Of a stretch of DNA of 64,000 nucleotides, positions 17,709 through 30,639 are shown one piece after another. The DNA comes from Candida dubliniensis CD36 (taxonomy: Eukaryota > Ascomycota > Pichiomycetes > Serinales > Debaryomycetaceae). The first letter of the stretch is position 1. Each line of letters starts with the position of its first letter. The stretch is from assembly GCF_000026945.1 (NCBI RefSeq), contig NC_012864.1, positions 62,001-126,000 on the forward strand. Direction: 5' to 3'. The position numbers and the translations under genes are program-made. The notes beneath the pieces are model-generated. The model saw only the letters and a program-made list of their open reading frames with translations. It searched no databases and was not told where the DNA came from.

Positions 17709-19031
17709 TTATTGTTGGGCACACGATTGCTCGTATCCCTGTTCGTTGTGCTTTCTATCCTGACTGTACTTGGGTAACTGATTGGAATCTATTATGGAAA
17801 AGTCAGTGAATAACTCGATACTTGGATCTGGAACATCAATCTCTTTTTCTTCACGAGCATGCTTAGTTGGAAGAAGATTTCTGATTTTGGCCAAATCATT
17901 CTTTTCAATATACCAGTTATCAGGCGGAAATTCAATCTCGACTTTCAAGTATAAATCTCCTCTGGAGGAATCGGCAGAATTGAACCATGATTTTTTGGGT
18001 GTGCTTTTAGGCATCCCTTCGCCAGATAACTTTAAATATTCACCTGGTCTGATCACCTTTCCTTTTGGGGTTGATATTTTTATTCCTCTTCCGTCCAAGT
18101 GAACTGCTACAAGCTTGGAAAACCCACATATAGAGTCTACCAAGGGTATTTTGACTTTCATGTACAAATCATCATCTTTTCTGGTAAACACCTTATGTGG
18201 TTTACATTTGTATTCCAATATAACATCACCAGTAACTTTTCCTGGAAATTGGTCCGATTCACCATTCTTGTATATGACCCCATGAGCAGGTGAACCTTTG
18301 GGGATCTCAAACTCCAATATTTTCGTTTCCTCTATGACTCGTGCCCCATGACATAATTTACACTTATCTTTCGATCGATATATCCTGCCAATTCCTTGAC
18401 ATGTAGAACAATCAACATAGGTTTGTGCAACCATGCCGGGTCCAACTCGTTTTATTTTTCTGACTTGTCCTTCTCCCTTACAAGTGGAGCATTGTTTTGA
18501 GACAACTGATGATGATTTGACACCTAATCCTTTACATTGAGTGCAAATAATATTTCTAGTCGAAGTGGTTTTGATAACTTTGCCTTTGTATAAATCCTCT
18601 AAAGTTAAGTCAACTTCTATATTTGCATCCTCGGTTCTGTTTGCTCTTGACAGGTGGTGACGAGGACCCCCGCCACCATTCATGTTATTGAAAAAATTAT
18701 AAAAGTCATCACCACCATATTCATTAAAATGGGCACCTGCACCTGCACCGTAGAATTGATCAAAAGGGTTTCCAGCGAATTCAAAATCGGGCATTCCATT
18801 TAATCCATCGGTAGTACCATATCTATCATATTCATTTCTCTTTACCTCATCAATTAATATTTCGTATGCAAACGATATTTCTTTGAATTTTGTTTCAGAG
18901 TATTCTCGTTCTTCTTCGGCCACTTTATCGGGATGATATTTTAAAGCTAGTTTTCTGTATGCTTTTTTAATCTCCGCATTGGTGGCTGATCTATCTATTT
19001 CAAGAACATCATATAGATCGGTTTCTAGCAT
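17709..19031 (-). CDS. XDJ1: Type I (class A) J-protein, Xdj1/Ydj1 family
   Basis: Hsp40 co-chaperone that stimulates Hsp70 ATPase. 440 aa from the ATG at 19,031. Domains: J domain with HPD at 33-35; a Gly/Phe-rich linker ([11 protein letters not shown]); the zinc-binding region with [24 protein letters not shown] and CKLCHGAR; then the substrate-binding C-terminal domains. The protein ends CAQQ, a plausible CaaX box for farnesylation, as in Ydj1-type proteins. The frame is open 20 codons further but has no upstream ATG, so 19,031 is the start; it also puts the J domain at the N-terminus as usual. A Xdj1 rather than Ydj1 call rests on divergence from Ydj1 and on gene context. Its upstream side opens directly onto the gene desert. 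Confidence 0.82.
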
Positions 19032-19087
19032 ATTGATGGTAATGGGGCGGTAGTGTGCTGACTGGAATAATCTGAATTTGAGGAAAA

Positions 19088-19148
19088 ACACCTTTCAAAA
19101 AAAAACCTCTTTCCTAATTTGGACTACGCACTGAAGAAAGTCGCACTC
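19088..19148 (+). repeat. Left inverted arm of gene desert
   Basis: It holds three blocks in order: ACACCTTTC followed by an A-run (19,088 on), TTCCTAA (19,111-19,117) and GAAGAAAGTCGCACTC (19,133-19,148). All three recur in the same order on the opposite strand at 25,296-25,369. The arm sits 57-117 bp upstream of the XDJ1 ATG, so it may also be XDJ1 promoter. Confidence 0.65.
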
Positions 19149-21692
19149 ATAATTCACCCGGCCAAAAGTCCGTTTTGAGCAAAGCAAAATCTGTCCGACA
19201 AAAAAGATATATTTTTTCTGACATTTAATTAATTTCCGACAAAAATGGAAAATATCTAAGTAACTTCGCGGTAAATATACTCTGACATTTTTTTTTGGGC
19301 CACTAGCGAGGTGCTACTCATACGAAAAAAAGAATCGTCTTAGGCCAAATATGGCATAACTGAAATTATTCTCGCTCTAGTTGTTTTTTTTGGTCGACCA
19401 GGAATGAAAAAAAGGAAACAAAAATCCAATATTAGGCCGCACATGGCCAGTAAAAAAAAACCTCTCGTCTAAAAATTTGTAACCTTTGGACAAATGAAAC
19501 GTAAACAAAAAAATTTTTTCGTCTACTAAAATTGGACGATGGCGAGTAATACTAAAAAAAGTTCGACGAAAAAAAAATTTTCATACTTCTCACCACTTTT
19601 TTTTCTTAACCAACAACAATCTTTTCATCAAAATTATAATGTTTCCATCAATAATCAATCAACAAAAGTTGGTAAAGGTTGTTTAATGAGCTAATTGGTT
19701 GGTTTCCCATCTGCTTCAAATAAATAAATCCCAATTGCTTTGACAATTCAGACAATTCCCAATTTTAATAGCTAATTAAGGAATTACTTTTAGACGGCCC
19801 TGGTTTCGAATTCAACGCCATTAATTTCAAATATGAAACAACATGAGTGCTTGGCAGGAGATTTATACAAAGTACAGTTCATTAAAAATTGAAAAAATCA
19901 AGCAAAGAATTAAAAAATTAAAAATAAAATAAAAAAAATTAAAAAAAAGAACTACTTTGGCTCCTTATTATATATTCAAACCCAAGTATGATTGGCGTGA
20001 TTATTTGGAAATAGTGGTTATGTTATAAATCAATAAAAGATACTAAAAAAATAAAATAAAATATTAAAAAATTCAAAAAAAAAAGTCAAAAAATCAAAAA
20101 AAAAGAGTATCATAATATACTGTATATATCTTCAAAGTTGTTTTCGATTCCAAATATCTGGTAAATTGCCTGTTGCTATTTATTATCTTTGGCAGTATTT
20201 CAATAATGTGCATTTCTGGTCTGGTCAACATCATTTTTATTGGCTTTTGGGTGCTTTTTCAATTTTAATTGATTTTGAAGCTGGTATTGTAAGTTGCTAA
20301 CGCCATCAATTGTTTCAAATTATATTTGTTCTTCTGCTAGATGGTTTTATCGTTTTTTGGTCAATCTGAAATCGGTTTTTGACTATAATTTGTTTTGGTC
20401 AGTCTGTTTTTGTTCTTTTGAGTGGTATTGACTAAATTGGTTTATTATTAGTTGCTATTAATGATGCTAAACTTCATATTCCACACAATTTACGTTATTA
20501 TTGAAGTATATTTTCAATTTCTATTCAATACGTCGAATCATTGAAATTTCGACAATATGAACCAAGTTGAATACCCTGATTCCCTTGCTGTTCCAAATTA
20601 TTATTTGCTAATGCTATAAATTATTGCTAATAGCGTCTAACCACTATTTTTTGATGGTTATTGGTATGGTCAATCAAGAAAGAGCACCTACCTAATGTTT
20701 TCACATTTGGCTGTATCAAAACAAGTGTTATCGTAACTATCTTGTTGGCCCAATGATGACTTTTAGTTCTGTTTGATAATATCAGTTCTAACTAACATTG
20801 GATTTTCTATCCAAATCAAGATGCAGTACTTTTGTATTGCAATTACAAAGGGTTTTAGATAGACCATTCAGCAGTGCTGTAATGATATTGCTTTTTATCT
20901 AAAAAACCCAGCTATTCTTTGGCGTTAGTGATATAATCAACAAATCACTAATTATTTGCTTGCCGTTGAATTGGTTATCGTTTACTGGTTTTAACTTGCT
21001 GTTGTGCCCATTCAGCGGTGCTGTAATGGTGTATTGGCTTGCTATTTGTTGCTTTTAACAAAAATAAGGTTATACTTTGCTGTCTTTGGTTATATTCAGG
21101 TTTTCAATTGAGAATCTGAGTTATTTTAAATATGTATTCTATTGCTGGTGTTATATCCTAATATTTATTGAAAATCTGGTATTTTTTGCTAAATATTTTT
21201 AAATTCTGTCCCAATGTTGGTTTAAATATGCTAGAAATGGTCATGTTTGTCTATTATTGAACTTTAATGGTGGTTTTTAAATGGTTTAATTTGCTACAAA
21301 AATTTATTGGTGTTAAACATATAATAACGAGGAGTGTGCTGCTAGAATGAACTCGTTGAATACTAGAGTTGGTCAAAATGTTGCTAGGTGGGCTTAATTG
21401 CTAACAGTTTCTGGTGGTAAAATTATTATTATCGGTTCTTCAAATTGGTTTAATTGCTGATGCTAAAAAGCTTCTGGTATTTTTGATTTTGAGGATAGTT
21501 ATTTTTATGCTGAAGATGGTTCCATGAATGCTGTTGAATAGGGTCATGTTGACTTGATTTTATCCTTGGTTGTTAAAAGTAATAGGTTGGTGCTTTATTG
21601 CTACGACAGGTTGTCCATGTGGTCATAGTTGCTAGGCAACTGAATACAGAAGGTGCCGGTAATGATCAAAAGTGGAAGGTAAATGCAATTTG

Positions 21693-22745
21693 TTAACTAA
21701 GGGCAGGTAGGTATATTGGAAGTGGTCAAAAATAGCTGGTGGCTGGCTGTTATGAGGTGTGGTCAGACTGTTAAGGCTTGATGTGACGCTAGTGGTGACA
21801 AATGGTGGGTTTTTGGTGCCTCTTAAGTTAGGTCAGGTTGCCAATAAAAGAGTGTTTCTAATGGTCAAAAATGAAGGGTTTAAGGTGGTCCTTAACTATG
21901 GGCAGGTAGCTGAAGACATAGTGTGTTGCTAGTGGTCAAAAGCGATGGGTTAGCAAAAGGTGTTAACTATGGGCAGGTTATCCAAGATTTACGCTGCTGG
22001 TAGTGGTCAAAAATAGTGGGTTACTGGGGTCCGTTAAGTATGGCCAGGTTGCTCAAGACTAGATGGTCTGAGAAAGTTCAAAATCGATGATGTCCGAGTG
22101 GATTTTAACTATGAGCAGGTAGGTCAAAGTGAAATAGTCCGCTAATGGTCAAAAGTGATGAGTTATTGATGGTCTTTAAATATGGTCATGTTGTCCGATA
22201 ACTGCTGGTTCAATTTTGTTGAAAAATAGCATGTTGGGGGTATCTTTTAACTAAGACCAGGTTGCTGAAAGCGTAATGTAATGTTAGTAGTCAAAATGGG
22301 ATGCTCTACTAGTAGTTATTAACTATGGACATGTTGGTTGAACTTGAATAAGCTGCTAGTGGTCAAATATGATGGATTGAGAGAGTCTGTTAACTATGGG
22401 CAGGTTGTCTGACCCCAGACAAAGTTCATTCTGGTCGTAGCCAAGAGTTGTTACTAGTTGTTAACTATGGACAGGTTGTTTGGACGATAATGTGATGGTA
22501 CTGGTCAAGAATGATGGTTTCCTGGTACTTCTTCAGTATGGGCAGGTTGCAAAGACTATAATGTGCTTAAAGTGGCCAAAATTGGTAGATAAATCCCGTT
22601 TGTTAAGTATGGACAGGTTGTCAACTCCAAAGTGTGCTAGGAGTAGTCAAAGATGAAGGGTTTTCAAGGTTTGTTAAGTATGGGCAGGTTGTCATGATCA
22701 AATGTTCTTATATTGCACTGAACTGCTACAGATGTTTATTGAGAT
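21693..22745 (+). repeat. Degenerate 71-bp tandem array, about 14 units
   Basis: The anchor TTAACTATGGGCAGGTTG (with substitutions) starts at 21693, 21823, 21892, 21963, 22034, 22105, 22176, 22247, 22319, 22390, 22461, 22532, 22603 and 22674. From 21823 on, the twelve intervals are 69, then 71 throughout except one 72. About 42 nt after each anchor comes GCTAGTGGTCAAAA, followed by a TGATGGGTT-like block. Units differ at many bases but hardly at all in length. An extra weak unit starts near 21,750, and an out-of-array copy (TTAGTGTGAACAGGTTG) lies at 22,884, close to the predicted phase. 71 is not a multiple of 3 and all frames are stopped, so the array is not coding. Confidence 0.9.
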
Positions 22746-24466
22746 GGTCTTTAACAGGAATATTCATGTTTGTATAGGGTGATCAGGCTATCACCACTTT
22801 TATAATTGTAGTACCTTTTAATTTAATGTTTTAGATCGAATGTTATTATTTACGACGAACAGTAGTATGTGAATGATGGTTAGTTAGTGTGAACAGGTTG
22901 TTCCTATCAGTTCGTGGATGGCTTGAAACAATATCAGGTTCTTATACATTGTATCTATTCAAATGAAAACAACGACATATATCGTTATATTTGAGCACAC
23001 TAGAACGGTTTAATTAAAAGATCGTAAGTACAAGTAATATATTATTGATTATATCTGGCTTGCAAACAAACAGAGGTTTGATAATGTTGATATTTGTTGT
23101 TTTATCGACTGACTTGTTTGATTGATGATTATATTGAGGTTTTGTCAGAGTTTTTTACATTTCCATTGTTCTTTTATAGAATTCATAGGTATATTTTATA
23201 TTTATATAATAGATAAATACCTTATTAATCAACTATAGAATTTTTAGAGTCATCATTAATCTGTATGTGTTATTAAAGTGATGTTTTATTGACCATATTA
23301 TGTTGAATTTTTGACACTTAGCGAAATTTTTTTCTCATTTTTTTTTGCAACACTTCTCGCTATTTTTTTGAATTGAAAAAAAAAAAATGAAATAAATACT
23401 GATCCAACAAGGTAAATCTAACTGTAAAGCTAAATACAAGATGACCTGACCAAAGTTTTGCATTATGAATGCTGTTATACCTTGTAAAAATAGTTCAAGT
23501 ATGTTAGAAATTCTTGAATTGGCAGTTTTATCTATTGAAGAATACTACAATTGGTTTAGAAAAGGACTTTTCGTTTTTTTGTTAAGGATTCTTACTTATA
23601 TAGGAATCAGCCACAAATAATGTCTTTCTGACCACTTTTATAAATAAAGTTAATCCAATATCTATTTTGGTATACATTATAGAGGTATATATACCCTTTT
23701 CATATAACTTAAAGCCGTTAATCAGTGATATTATTCTTGTTTTAATAGGTATAAAGTTAAAATTATTTTTTACATATTTTTTCAGTGAGAATTGTAGCGT
23801 AATTTCAGCAAATATTGTAGTTTCTATTAATTAAAAACAATAAAAAACTGATGTATTCACAGTAAAGATAGACTAGTTAGATAGAGAGGGAATGTAAAAT
23901 AAGCATCCACTTTTTTGATTGTAGTTTTGTTTAATTATTTGTGTCAGAGTTCTAGTGATTAATGTATTAGCATTAGTGAGTGTTTCAATATCAATTAAAT
24001 GTTCAATTGAAAGCAACAAAAGGTATCTCAATTGGCAGGGTTATTTAGATAGAGAAAGTCTTTGCTAGTGCTTGATTTAAGGTAAAGGCAAGTGCTCAGA
24101 GTTGCTGTTTATTAGATGCATAGCATTATATCATTGATTATTCATTTATTATCTTTTTGAGGCAACAAATGAGAATCAACAGAAGCATAACATGTATATA
24201 CTTATTATTCAAAAGCCAATTGTGTATTAATTTGAAATATCTATATGGTTGAACTTGTAGAACTTATCTATCTTCCAGTTACAATCAAAACGATGAACAA
24301 TTAAAAAACTCACAGCCAGTGTATGACATCGGTAAAAGAATCGATATCTGGCCATGTTTGCAATACAAATAGCTCCTAATACGTCTTTACCTAGTCTTGA
24401 ATTCAATTAATTATCTTACGAACGGAATGCAACCTAAACAAATCCCAGCATTGTACATTCGGACAA

Positions 24467-24706
24467 TTACTGAAATAAATTGACATATTCTAGGCTTTCC
24501 AACAATATAATTATTTTTAAAACATGAAGCGTTGAATAAATATCACTCTCTGGCTCCTCAAATACAAGTATTTCTGATATAAAACCCCAGTGTAGTTCAA
24601 TATGATTTAATTTAAACACATCATTTCGAAAATTGAGTAAAGAAATATCCATTGATGGTAAAATGTTCAAAAGAAACAGACTATAATCATCCTTCATTGC
24701 TTCCAC
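24467..24706 (-). pseudogene. Possible LRR-like gene relic (weak)
   Basis: A 79-codon minus-strand frame with leucine/isoleucine-patterned text (SLLNFRNDVFKLNHIELHWG, LHVLKIIILLESLEYVNLF) that resembles leucine-rich repeats more than random AT-rich translation. Flanking frames are interrupted by stops on both sides. No family is assigned. It may be chance. Confidence 0.2.
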
Positions 24707-25295
24707 TTATGCATTGTAGATCATATGTGATGATACAACAACAATCGATTAAAAAGTCACATAAATTCTCATACTCTAATCAACAGATGCTTGATTCTCC
24801 AATTCTTGTCCCAGATATCCAAAACCTTTTATTAAATTAGTATCCACTTAATCTCCACCATCTGAATTAACACCAGAATTAATTATATTCACATTAATGG
24901 CACTATTGAAAGGGATATTGGAGTTTCTTTAGGTTATACATAAAAATGATCTCTTGAACTTTGATCCAGTTTTTTAACCATTAACATGTCATATTTAGCT
25001 GCATAAAATGTATCCTATAATACCCAGGATCCTTTCAATAATGAATCTATAAGAAAATAGCATCTATTCATGTAGCTATAGCTGTTGTAGTATTAATAAT
25101 GATGAAGTAATAAAGAAATAAGTTGCAGAGATTTGTTTTTTTTTTTTCGTTAAGTATTTTTCTACTAAGTAATTTTTTTGTCTTGATTTTTTGTCTTATT
25201 ATTTCCTTTTTGGGCGTTCTTAGTGACAAAATTCGGACACTATTTCCTAATTGGTGTTGAGAGAAAAACCAGAATTAGGGAGACATTTTCTAAAA

Positions 25296-25369
25296 GAGTG
25301 CGACTTTTTTCATTTGAGCGCTTTCCTATTTAGGAAGCAGCCATACAATTCTTTTTTTTTGGAAGGTGT
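25296..25369 (-). repeat. Right inverted arm of gene desert
   Basis: Read on the minus strand it gives ACACCTTCC plus an A-run, then TTCCTAA (25,330-25,336), then GAAAAAAGTCGCACTC (25,296-25,311). The last block matches the left arm at 15 of 16 bases; the arms differ mainly by about 13 nt of spacing. Weak similarity may extend outward towards the XDJ1 leader. Confidence 0.65.
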
Positions 25370-25666
25370 ATTTAAACGCTCTCGAATAATCTGACTTCAG
25401 CTTCTATTTTTTTTTTTTATTCTGTTTTTATTTTGTTTTGTATTTTTTCTTCTTTTTTCATTGTGTGGTTTAGTTTAGTTTGTTTCCTTCTGCTTTGCTT
25501 AAATTTTTTTTTTAATTGATTTTCATGATCACACTATTAATCGTTAATTGTTTCATCATTTTACACATGATAAATAAAAAATAATAAGCACAACGTCAGA
25601 TGAATTACGAAGTACATGTGACTGATATGCATACTGTCAGCAAATTAGGAAAAAATAAAAATTTCG

Positions 25667-25677: not shown

Positions 25678-25680
25678 TGG

Positions 25681-25762
25681 CGACACGAGCAGGGTTCGAA
25701 CCTGCGCGGGCAATGCCCAAAGGAACCTGCATCCTTCGCCTTAACCACTCGGCCATCGTATC
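25681..25762 (-). tRNA. tS(CAG): tRNA-Ser(CAG), the CUG-reassigning serine tRNA
   Basis: 82 nt, no intron. Acceptor GATACGA/TCGTGTC (7 bp with one U-G pair) and discriminator G73, typical of Ser (Leu tRNAs use A73). Anticodon stem AAGGA/TCCTT with loop TGCAGGT: U32, G33, anticodon CAG, G37. The long variable arm GGGC-ATT-GCCC is class II. T arm GCAGG-TTCGAAC-CCTGC. The A box (TGGCCGAGTGG) and B box (GGTTCGAACCC) are the internal promoter. G33 in place of the near-universal U33 is the known hallmark of the Candida tRNA that decodes CUG as Ser with low-level Leu charging; G37 (m1G in the known tRNA) favours that Leu mischarging. The genomic bases right after G73 read CCA before the T-run. Confidence 0.97.
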
Positions 25763-28293: not shown

Positions 28294-30639
28294 ATGACGT
28301 CAAAACTCCCTAGAGCGACTCTAGCGCAGAAATTGCAAATACTAGATTATTATCACAAATCAGATAGACCACAACTGGAAACTGTTGATAAATTTAAGAA
28401 TGAGGTTTCAATTTCGACATCTTCATTCAGTGAATGGTTAAAAAATGAACCGGAATTAAGAAAACGATATAATCAAGCAGATTTCAAGTTTTCTAAAAAT
28501 AGTAAAAGAAAAGTGAAATTCAAGTATGAAGAAATAAACAAGGCAATGGATAAATTGGTGATTGGGAGATTAGAGAGAAACGAGCCTATTACTGAACCAA
28601 TACTAAGAGAGCATTGGTCAGTTTATGCTCATCAGTATGGGGTTGATGATCCAAAGAGGTTACACAGTTTTAGTCATGGTTGGCTTAGTCAGTTTAAGAA
28701 GCGACATGGAATCAATAAGAAATCAAATAATGGCTCTCAAAAGAATGCAAAAAATGGTACATCCAAAAATGCTGTTGAAGTTGATTCTGATTCAATTCAT
28801 ATTCAAAGTAACGATGAAGAGGAAAATGTGGAGAATGGCTTTGAACCTTTGGATGGTCCCGAGGTAGAGGTATCTGGAGTGGAGGACCAAAATTACGACC
28901 CAAAGTTTTCCACCATAAGCCATGAACACAATATTCGGAATCCAACCGAAAATAGCAATGAACCAAGGACGAAAAAAGCAAGATTGGATGGTCGCAACAA
29001 TGCATCACAGCTTGAAGCCAATTCAAATTTTGATTTGTTAGCTCAGCAAAGACAGCATTCACAACCACTGTCACTATTAACATCACCATCGCCCAACTCG
29101 GACCATTCACAACAACAATTAGAACGCCGCCGTCGAAAGCGACACCAGCTGCCACAAGAACAGCAACATATCGACCACCAACAACAACAAGATCAGCAAC
29201 AACAACAGGCAAGATTACAAGGGGACAAACATTCAGAGAACTCAAATAGAAACAATCAGGAACATTACATACAACATGGGCAAGCAAATGTTAGAAATGA
29301 GGCTCAGTTACTTCAAGAACAACAGAAACAATTGCAGAAATCGAAACAACAACCAACAGGTACAGACACTGTTCCTCGAAATCAATTTAGACCACAACAG
29401 GGTCTTAGTTTTAGTCATAGTAATTCTCCAATCATGAGTTTTGGGATGGACAAACACAATATGCAATTACAAAACCAATATCAAAAGAGTCATCGTCATG
29501 GCGCTAACCAATCAAACACAGTACCAGAAGATATACAAAATCCAAGCCCTGACCAGGATTTTAGAAATAGTTTAATGAACAACAATGGAAATAAGAACAC
29601 AATCAATTATAGCCCCAATCAACTTTATAAAGAACAGAGACAACTATTAAATGACGATTATTCATCAGGAATAACCAAATCGAATGATTCAAGAAATTCC
29701 AGAGTAATTTCCAATAACGATGACACAGAAACAGAAGTAAGTACAAACCAGGCATTGCTAACTGGTAGAATGACAGAAGAGGAAACGAAAGCAGCCAGCG
29801 AATTAAATAATATCACTAATCCAATTACAGCAACCGATATGGAGAGATTCATTTATATGTTTGCCGATAGATTTTTCCATTTACATCAGTATGAGTACCC
29901 TCAAACAGTAAAAGTTTTCCAAGAATTCAAACTGTCATTTTTTAATGAAAGAATTATGAATAATAGAACATCAAAGCAGCAACAGCAGCAACAGCAACAG
30001 CAGCAGCAGCAACAGCAACAGACATCTTTGCCTCAACAGCTGCAAGTGCAACCACAATTACAACAGCAGCAACAACCGTCTCCATCTATGCAATCAACAC
30101 AACAAATACAACAGCCAATGATTTACCACCATAACGGTCGTCAACAACAACAACAACAACAGCAACAGCAGCAGCAGCTTAATAGAAATACCATATCCTC
30201 ACAATTACCAGCTCTTGTTGCTGCAACCGCTAGTTTGGTCAATAACAATCAATCAAATATGTCACTTAAAAACGCTAATTCTACTATGGTCTTGAATCCA
30301 CAGCTGAATCCGCATCAAAGACAACAACAACAACAGCATGAGCATCAACAACCACCCACTTTACCCACTCCATTACAGAAAATTGACAGTTCAAAGAGTC
30401 ATCATTTAGTAATGTCGCCGTCGCCAATGGACACATTAGTGCAACTTCAATTGCGTCAACAAGGCGCTCAAAGTAGTTTACAACAACAACAGCAACAGCA
30501 ACAACAAATTTCAAACTTTGATGATTATTTACGATCGATGAATGCACAAACTTTGTTAAATAGCCAACCAAGTGCTACAAGAAATAATGGACTAACAGAA
30601 ATGAATTTAGATAGAAATTCAAGAATGACAAAATCATAA
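28294..30639 (+). CDS. CENP-B/Tc5-type HTH protein with polyQ tracts, function unknown
   Basis: 781 aa. The N-terminus has the tandem HTH layout of CENP-B and pogo/Tigger transposases: ATLAQKLQILDYYHKSDRP with EVSISTSSFSEWLKNEPEL (psq-like, 8-55), then a second unit (about 75-142) ending HSFSHGWLSQFKKRHGI, the typical CENPB end. There is no DDE nuclease domain, so this is a DNA-binding protein and not an active transposase. The rest is Q/N/S-rich: a conserved-looking ATDMERFIYMFADRFFHLHQ segment (about 511-530), then three polyQ tracts encoded by mixed CAA/CAG. Codon 28 (28,375) is CTG inside the first HTH, read Ser in this clade. It is probably a transcription or chromatin factor. I do not recognise the orthologue. 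Confidence 0.8.
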   Translation: MTSKLPRATLAQKLQILDYYHKSDRPQLETVDKFKNEVSISTSSFSEWLKNEPELRKRYNQADFKFSKNSKRKVKFKYEEINKAMDKLVIGRLERNEPITEPILREHWSVYAHQYGVDDPKRLHSFSHGWLSQFKKRHGINKKSNNGSQKNAKNGTSKNAVEVDSDSIHIQSNDEEENVENGFEPLDGPEVEVSGVEDQNYDPKFSTISHEHNIRNPTENSNEPRTKKARLDGRNNASQLEANSNFDLLAQQRQHSQPLSLLTSPSPNSDHSQQQLERRRRKRHQLPQEQQHIDHQQQQDQQQQQARLQGDKHSENSNRNNQEHYIQHGQANVRNEAQLLQEQQKQLQKSKQQPTGTDTVPRNQFRPQQGLSFSHSNSPIMSFGMDKHNMQLQNQYQKSHRHGANQSNTVPEDIQNPSPDQDFRNSLMNNNGNKNTINYSPNQLYKEQRQLLNDDYSSGITKSNDSRNSRVISNNDDTETEVSTNQALLTGRMTEEETKAASELNNITNPITATDMERFIYMFADRFFHLHQYEYPQTVKVFQEFKLSFFNERIMNNRTSKQQQQQQQQQQQQQQQTSLPQQLQVQPQLQQQQQPSPSMQSTQQIQQPMIYHHNGRQQQQQQQQQQQQLNRNTISSQLPALVAATASLVNNNQSNMSLKNANSTMVLNPQLNPHQRQQQQQHEHQQPPTLPTPLQKIDSSKSHHLVMSPSPMDTLVQLQLRQQGAQSSLQQQQQQQQQISNFDDYLRSMNAQTLLNSQPSATRNNGLTEMNLDRNSRMTKS
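29976..30022 (+). repeat. CAG/CAA trinucleotide repeat (polyQ)
   Basis: About 15 glutamine codons in mixed CAG/CAA in the HTH gene; two shorter tracts lie near 30,142-30,177 and 30,480-30,507. Tract length is likely to vary between alleles. Confidence 0.85.

Follow-up and report, generated by a model that had tools for sequence, protein, structure and literature searches.

The 71-bp phased array described here probably belonged to the interior of a non-autonomous DNA transposon of the Mutator-like (MULE) type, a reading to which we assign a probability of roughly 0.7. The array consisted of about 16 degenerate units and covered positions 21622 to 22744 on the plus strand of the window (i.e., the whole 64,000-nucleotide stretch of Candida dubliniensis CD36 DNA that was analyzed). 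The first-pass annotation had presented it as an isolated element without kin. Instead, the array proved to be part of a 6.3-kb transposon-like element, and a relative of the array was located upstream of a MULE-like transposase gene on contig C3. This relative ties the array and the element to Mutator-like DNA transposons.

The thirteen anchors on which the array had originally been based were at exactly the positions reported, and their spacings were 69, 71, 71, 71, 71, 71, 72, 71, 71, 71, 71, and 71 bp. The periodicity was far stronger than that of shuffled sequence. Specifically, identity at lag 71 was 0.477 between positions 21,693 and 22,745, whereas dinucleotide-preserving shuffles (n = 1000) had a mean of 0.271 (standard deviation, 0.014) at this lag and a maximum of 0.346 across all lags between 20 and 199. 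Identity was also raised at lag 142 (0.467) and lag 213 (0.424). The top 500-base stretch for lag 71 in the 64-kb window was located in the array (0.52), and the best value elsewhere (outside 20.5 to 23.3 kb) was 0.37. Tandem Repeats Finder, which was run with a minimum score of 40, missed the array because the units were only ~50% identical when they were aligned without gaps (mean of 0.501 for 13 full-length units). When gaps were allowed, the mean identity was 0.654 versus 0.582 for shuffled units; therefore, single pairs of units were weak evidence, and the register carried the signal. The mean column consensus was 0.695, and 1000 within-row shuffles gave values no higher than 0.439.

Scoring with a weight matrix and with a profile HMM of the unit, the latter recommended in the first-pass annotation, extended the array to its present size. 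Thirteen of the 16 units were 71 bp in length, and the others were 59 bp (unit 2), 69 bp (unit 4), and 72 bp (unit 10). The array strand was G-rich (GC skew of 0.38). Conservation along the unit was very uneven, since positions in the blocks were mostly 80 to 100% conserved and positions in the spacers were often 40 to 60% conserved. Conservation was concentrated in the two blocks noted previously, and the second block was roughly where it had been placed. Identity between units did not drop steadily with their separation (0.653 at a separation of 1, 0.677 at 7, and 0.636 at 8). This pattern makes a recent local amplification appear unlikely. The earlier suggestion of an old amplification with a nearly constant unit length was supported.

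The array had also been described as a noncoding sequence in a gene desert, and both descriptions held. Among the listed reading frames of at least 60 amino acids, none that was fully within the element exceeded 82 amino acids; a coding array was rejected, since a 71-bp unit is not divisible by 3 and long frames were absent. As previously stated, the array was not a tRNA or rRNA, and the idea of a tRNA-like unit, which came from inspection by eye, was dropped when Rfam yielded no match in the array. The single Rfam match near the array was located outside it and scored 19.9 bits versus the 39.9 bits required. The suggestion of a structured transcript was not supported, as RNAalifold predicted 0 base pairs from the unit alignment, and conserved RNA structure was rejected as an explanation. 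We also considered whether the array might be a host feature (nucleosome phasing, centromere-like chromatin, or a structured RNA) for which the mobile context is irrelevant. The strict spacing and the strongly G-rich strand would suit such a feature, but with no conserved RNA pairs, nothing credible in Rfam, and an array that travels with the element, we regard this explanation as highly improbable.

When the whole gene-poor stretch was compared to the 14.6-Mb genome, one other copy was found on contig C7, with 98% identity over window positions 19,073 to 22,623 and 22,674 to 25,387. The remaining genome matches involved only a short segment outside the element. The two-copy alignment and the 9-bp direct repeats at its ends defined a 6,310-bp non-autonomous mobile element at positions 19074 to 25383 (plus strand) of the window, which belongs to contig C6, and a ~98% identical copy of 6,240 bp at C7:242974-249213. 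The array was in the interior of the element, and a pair of 21-bp direct repeats that were 144 bp apart (20864 to 21028, plus strand) was inside the element upstream of the array. The target-site duplications of the window copy, for which strand is not applicable, were the 9-bp direct repeats GAATAATCT at 19065 to 19073 (left) and GAATAATCT at 25384 to 25392 (right). At the corresponding positions, the C7 copy was flanked by AAATCAATT twice, which is a perfect 9-bp repeat. Since different perfect 9-bp duplications were present at the edges of one sequence, the element was inserted independently at two unrelated places. A plain segmental duplication was dropped in favor of transposition after the 9-bp flanking repeats were found.

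The neighborhood of the window copy had several other features. A DnaJ-domain gene was located at 17709 to 19031 on the minus strand, and its predicted start codon was 34 to 42 bp from the left target-site duplication. An insertion at this distance upstream of the start codon would have cut the DnaJ gene off from its former upstream region, and the window copy may have supplied the gene with a new promoter. A tRNA with a CAG anticodon was found at 25678 to 25762 on the minus strand, ~0.3 kb from the right duplication; ARAGORN called it Leu under the bacterial code, and we take it to be the serine tRNA that changed the code in CUG-clade yeasts. Farther downstream of the element, a 781-amino-acid protein (28294 to 30639, plus strand) contained an HTH_Tnp_Tc5 DNA-binding domain (E value of 5.5e-17) and glutamine tracts.

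The ends of the element formed putative, imperfect terminal inverted repeats. The left repeat was located at 19084 to 19148 on the plus strand, and the right repeat, which includes GAGTGCGACTTTTTTCA, was located at 25296 to 25373 on the minus strand and was 94% complementary over 17 nucleotides. Within the outer 110 bases, 65 and 78 bp were aligned, and one end scored 26 when it was compared to the reverse-complemented opposite end. None of 5000 random window pairs reached this score (maximum of 25), and 1 of 5000 A-matched, non-overlapping pairs on opposite strands attained it. It was also attained by 30 of 5000 A-rich pairs on the same strand, a control in which overlaps were not excluded. 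Over 620 bases, the ends did not beat the controls (166.5 versus a resampled mean of 146 and a maximum of 198). No transposase remnant above the control was detected in the element; the best tblastn E value was 0.66, which is worse than the value of 0.014 obtained with the reversed element, and a decayed internal transposase was rejected. A DNA search of the genome for extra copies of the element's ends found the two copies only. A 23-base match with 2 mismatches to the left end was observed at C5:35319-35341; the reversed control pattern also had 1 match, and this resemblance may be due to chance.

We next consider how the two copies differ. The alignment of the C6 and C7 copies (window positions 19,073 to 25,388) contained 6,326 columns, 102 substitutions, and 17 indels, one of which was at the extreme edge of the alignment and outside the element. 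Outside the array, 72 substitutions were accompanied by 14 small indels, of which one was past the edge of the element; within the array, there were 30 substitutions, 12 of which were in unit 14, beside a gap. This gap corresponded to the loss of exactly one 71-bp unit, unit 15 (22603 to 22673, plus strand), from the C7 copy. In the alignment, the gap was placed at 22,614 to 22,684, between the conserved blocks of two adjacent units. The C7 unit that follows the gap was 97% like unit 16. A single base shared with unit 15 would be compatible with a first-block junction, but it does not fix the breakpoint. Unit 14 of the C7 copy (C7:246429-246499) was 17% different from its C6 counterpart, whereas the copies as a whole differed by <2%; an unseen copy may have acted as a donor in gene conversion.

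If the conserved columns had been under strong constraint, substitutions might be scarce in them. As for all array substitutions, 10 of 30 were in columns with a consensus of at least 70%, which made up 544 of 1,123 sites (48.4%; P = 0.10). Without units 14 and 15, conserved columns contained 8 of 18 substitutions, with 48.5% expected (P = 0.82). Because the substitutions did not significantly avoid conserved columns, strong constraint on the array since landing seems unlikely; the test was small, and weak constraint may have operated since insertion. These results bear on a second explanation, namely, that the array is a neutral, decaying old satellite in a dead element whose phase persists only through the rarity of indels. 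The substitution pattern is in line with this explanation, and if the loss of the C7 unit preceded insertion, it did not stop the element. On the other hand, even decay is not expected to yield such uneven conservation of blocks and spacers. Moreover, only 3 of the 16 units depart from 71 bp at ~50% ungapped divergence, compared to the ratio of 14 small indels to 72 substitutions found elsewhere in the element, and the first block has been kept in the C3 relative described below. We therefore view a purely neutral satellite as unlikely, although it retains an appreciable share of the probability.

The C3 relative is the evidence that connects the array to a transposase gene. A genome search with the first-block pattern yielded one match at C3:2017706, apart from both arrays and ten sites of a type found in Major Repeat Sequence (MRS) flanks. 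In a separate search of the genome for transposases, which used the Pfam MULE domain and its curated cut-off of 27.6 bits, three loci were identified: C5:292086 and C3:837820 were above the cut-off, and C3:2020291 was just below it (26.4 bits). Positions 21801 to 22193 of the array (plus strand) had a collinear relative at C3:2017937-2018317, with 61% identity over 405 columns and a score of 86.8 bits (E value of 1.1e-17 in nhmmer with a profile of the two element copies). In 500 first-order Markov resamples of that segment, the best score was 32.6 bits (464 of the 500 gave any match), and in 137 other genome segments, the best score was 26.8 bits. The unit HMM also matched the C3 relative (26.1 bits, E value of 3.8e-8; best resample, 9.8 bits). 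The GC skew was alike in the C3 relative (0.364) and the window array (0.381), and block 1 was retained.

The C3 array relative was located 0.6 to 1 kb upstream of the start codon of a MULE-like gene (C3:2018908-2022084) that has 1,059 open codons and is recorded as a conserved hypothetical protein. The 1,059-amino-acid protein matched Pfam MULE with an E value of 4.2e-5 and a score of 24.3 bits, which is below the curated cut-off. It was similar to the C5 MULE protein (blastp E value of 2e-18) and to the broken MULE locus at C3:836-839 kb (tblastn E value of 9e-98), both of which are loci above the cut-off, and further loci also aligned. A word-limited search with the C3 protein, which is no proof of absence, recovered only the protein itself among 7,992 scored candidates. 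No array was found within 1.7 kb upstream of the second MULE locus at C3:836-839 kb. Two other loci were observed on contig C7. A broken fragment at C7:1030573-1031144 shared 85 to 91% protein identity with the C-terminal portion of the MULE-like transposase from C3, which is a sign that the C3 gene was copied. The second locus, C7:1066217-1068109, was a long, open MULE-like frame of 1,005 amino acids near the end of the contig.

The target-site duplications were consistent with a MULE. PMC6446971 gives the length of MULE target-site duplications as 8 to 11 bp and states that some MULEs are without terminal inverted repeats, and PMC3310237 gives a range of 9 to 11 bp; the duplications were 9 bp at both copies. 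An alternative is that the element belongs to a different superfamily of DNA transposons and that the window and C3 arrays are alike because both took sequence from elsewhere. Within 7.3 kb of the C3 locus, similarity to the window element was restricted to the array, and neither flank beat the resampled controls; no ends or coding part in common were seen in this 7.3 kb. In addition, the inverted ends of the element are weak. Both observations suit another superfamily, but the 9-bp length of the duplications at each site is within the range published for MULEs (PMC6446971), and we consider this alternative quite unlikely.

A further possibility was suggested by the MRS, whose RPS units contain subrepeats with a common core, COM29, that is printed in PMC6896093. 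In this scenario, the array would be distantly related to the RPS unit, and the block would represent an intermediate repeat of the MRS type. The conserved 10-mer TTAACTATGG was found in the reverse complement of COM29. Outside the arrays, ten sites had no more than 2 mismatches to the first block (eight copies of TTAACTATGGGGAGGTGG and two variants; the reversed control pattern had 2 matches), and nine of the ten adjoined RPS matches, among the matches listed. A unit-like stretch was also detected in one MRS flank, with nhmmer E values of 0.024 to 0.86 and a Smith-Waterman score of 39 versus a resampled maximum of 34 (n = 200), but this stretch was in what appeared by eye to be decayed coding sequence. 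No significant RPS match was obtained: the unit HMM had an E value of 5.2 over 13 bp, and the RPS Smith-Waterman score of 27 was attained in 83 of 200 resamples. For the second MRS flank, the score was 32, which was attained in 21 of 200 resamples. When MRS flanks were compared to the block, A-rich tracts were the only matches, so MRS-like flanks were not found, and both element copies have target-site duplications. Kinship with RPS/COM29 was rejected, as the shared 10-mer was not backed by the nhmmer, Smith-Waterman, and resampling results. We judge this scenario very unlikely; the kinship is not established on the available sequence comparisons, and we retain the likeness to the MRS as a resemblance without an explanation.

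Several observations on the MRS were made in the course of this comparison. The sequence TTAACTATGGGGAGGTGG, which agrees with the first block of the array at 16 of 18 positions, was found just outside the RPS array in 5 of 7 MRS pieces. MRS-like loci on contigs C2 to C8 contained 172-bp subrepeats, RPS units of ~2.1 kb, and flanks that were conserved between loci. The COM29 core had 291 genome matches with up to 3 mismatches, and the first hundred places listed were on seven contigs; the COM29 pattern had no match in viral and prokaryote collections. RPS arrays are like the 71-bp array in being tandem arrays in Candida chromosomes with the 10-mer TTAACTATGG in common. They differ in that their 172-bp subrepeats are arranged in ~2.1-kb units, their copies are highly alike, and they did not match the profile of the 71-bp unit significantly.

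Returning to the Mutator-like reading, we propose that the element would have been mobilized in trans, by a cut-and-paste mechanism, by a transposase of the C3 MULE-like lineage, and the C3 protein would be the natural candidate for this transposase. The array may in turn be a cis-acting region of the lineage, a proposal that is weaker than that of mobilization in trans. The array might provide successive binding sites for the transposase, for a partner protein, or for a host protein, or it might serve as an upstream control region of the transposase gene. Since the C3 array is 0.6 to 1 kb upstream of the start codon, its location would be equally suitable for a control region and for a binding platform. 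Selection would keep the phase and the two blocks while the lineage is mobile, and landed copies would then drift; whole units could be lost through exchange between units, as may have occurred in the C7 copy. Our most specific suggestion is that the array is a multi-site docking platform of a Candida Mutator-like lineage. The platform would have regularly spaced protein sites, with two blocks in each unit, and would predate the split from the C3 locus, which still has an intact transposase frame. It would be used to assemble a transposition complex or to link the expression of the transposase to the element's DNA. We offer this suggestion tentatively, as a possibility that we hold to be less probable than its absence. 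We know of no MULE with such a built-in docking platform.

Among the titles and abstracts listed for the open-license literature, none described this array or element, and a printed description elsewhere is possible. MULEs themselves are already known; what is probably new is a non-autonomous element of the Mutator-like kind whose ancient phased array is unusual. Two insertions, a candidate transposase gene with an open frame, and a candidate cis region are available in a single genome, and with these the mover and its recognition become testable. According to PMC6593122 and PMC7175516, Candida albicans carries MULEs, one of which is named Cmut1 and is located on chromosome R. The latter source, a 2020 review, states that DNA transposons in C. 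albicans, including MULEs, lack detailed characterization. The window element is like Cmut1 and other MULEs in its 9-bp target-site duplications, its putative short inverted ends, and the presence of MULE-like transposase genes in the same genome. It differs from MULEs, including Cmut1 (which was compared by description only), in carrying in its interior a phased array of 71-bp units that have two conserved blocks, and its ends are short and imperfect, whereas MULEs commonly have long ones. Plant MULEs with multiple tandem terminal inverted repeats, as described in PMC3310237, also have repeated cis sequences in a mobile MULE, and that paper suggests that such repeats improve recognition by the transposase. 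In contrast to those plant MULEs, which repeat whole terminal repeats, mostly in tandem, the window element repeats a mid-element 71-bp unit about 16 times, and this unit is unlike its ends.
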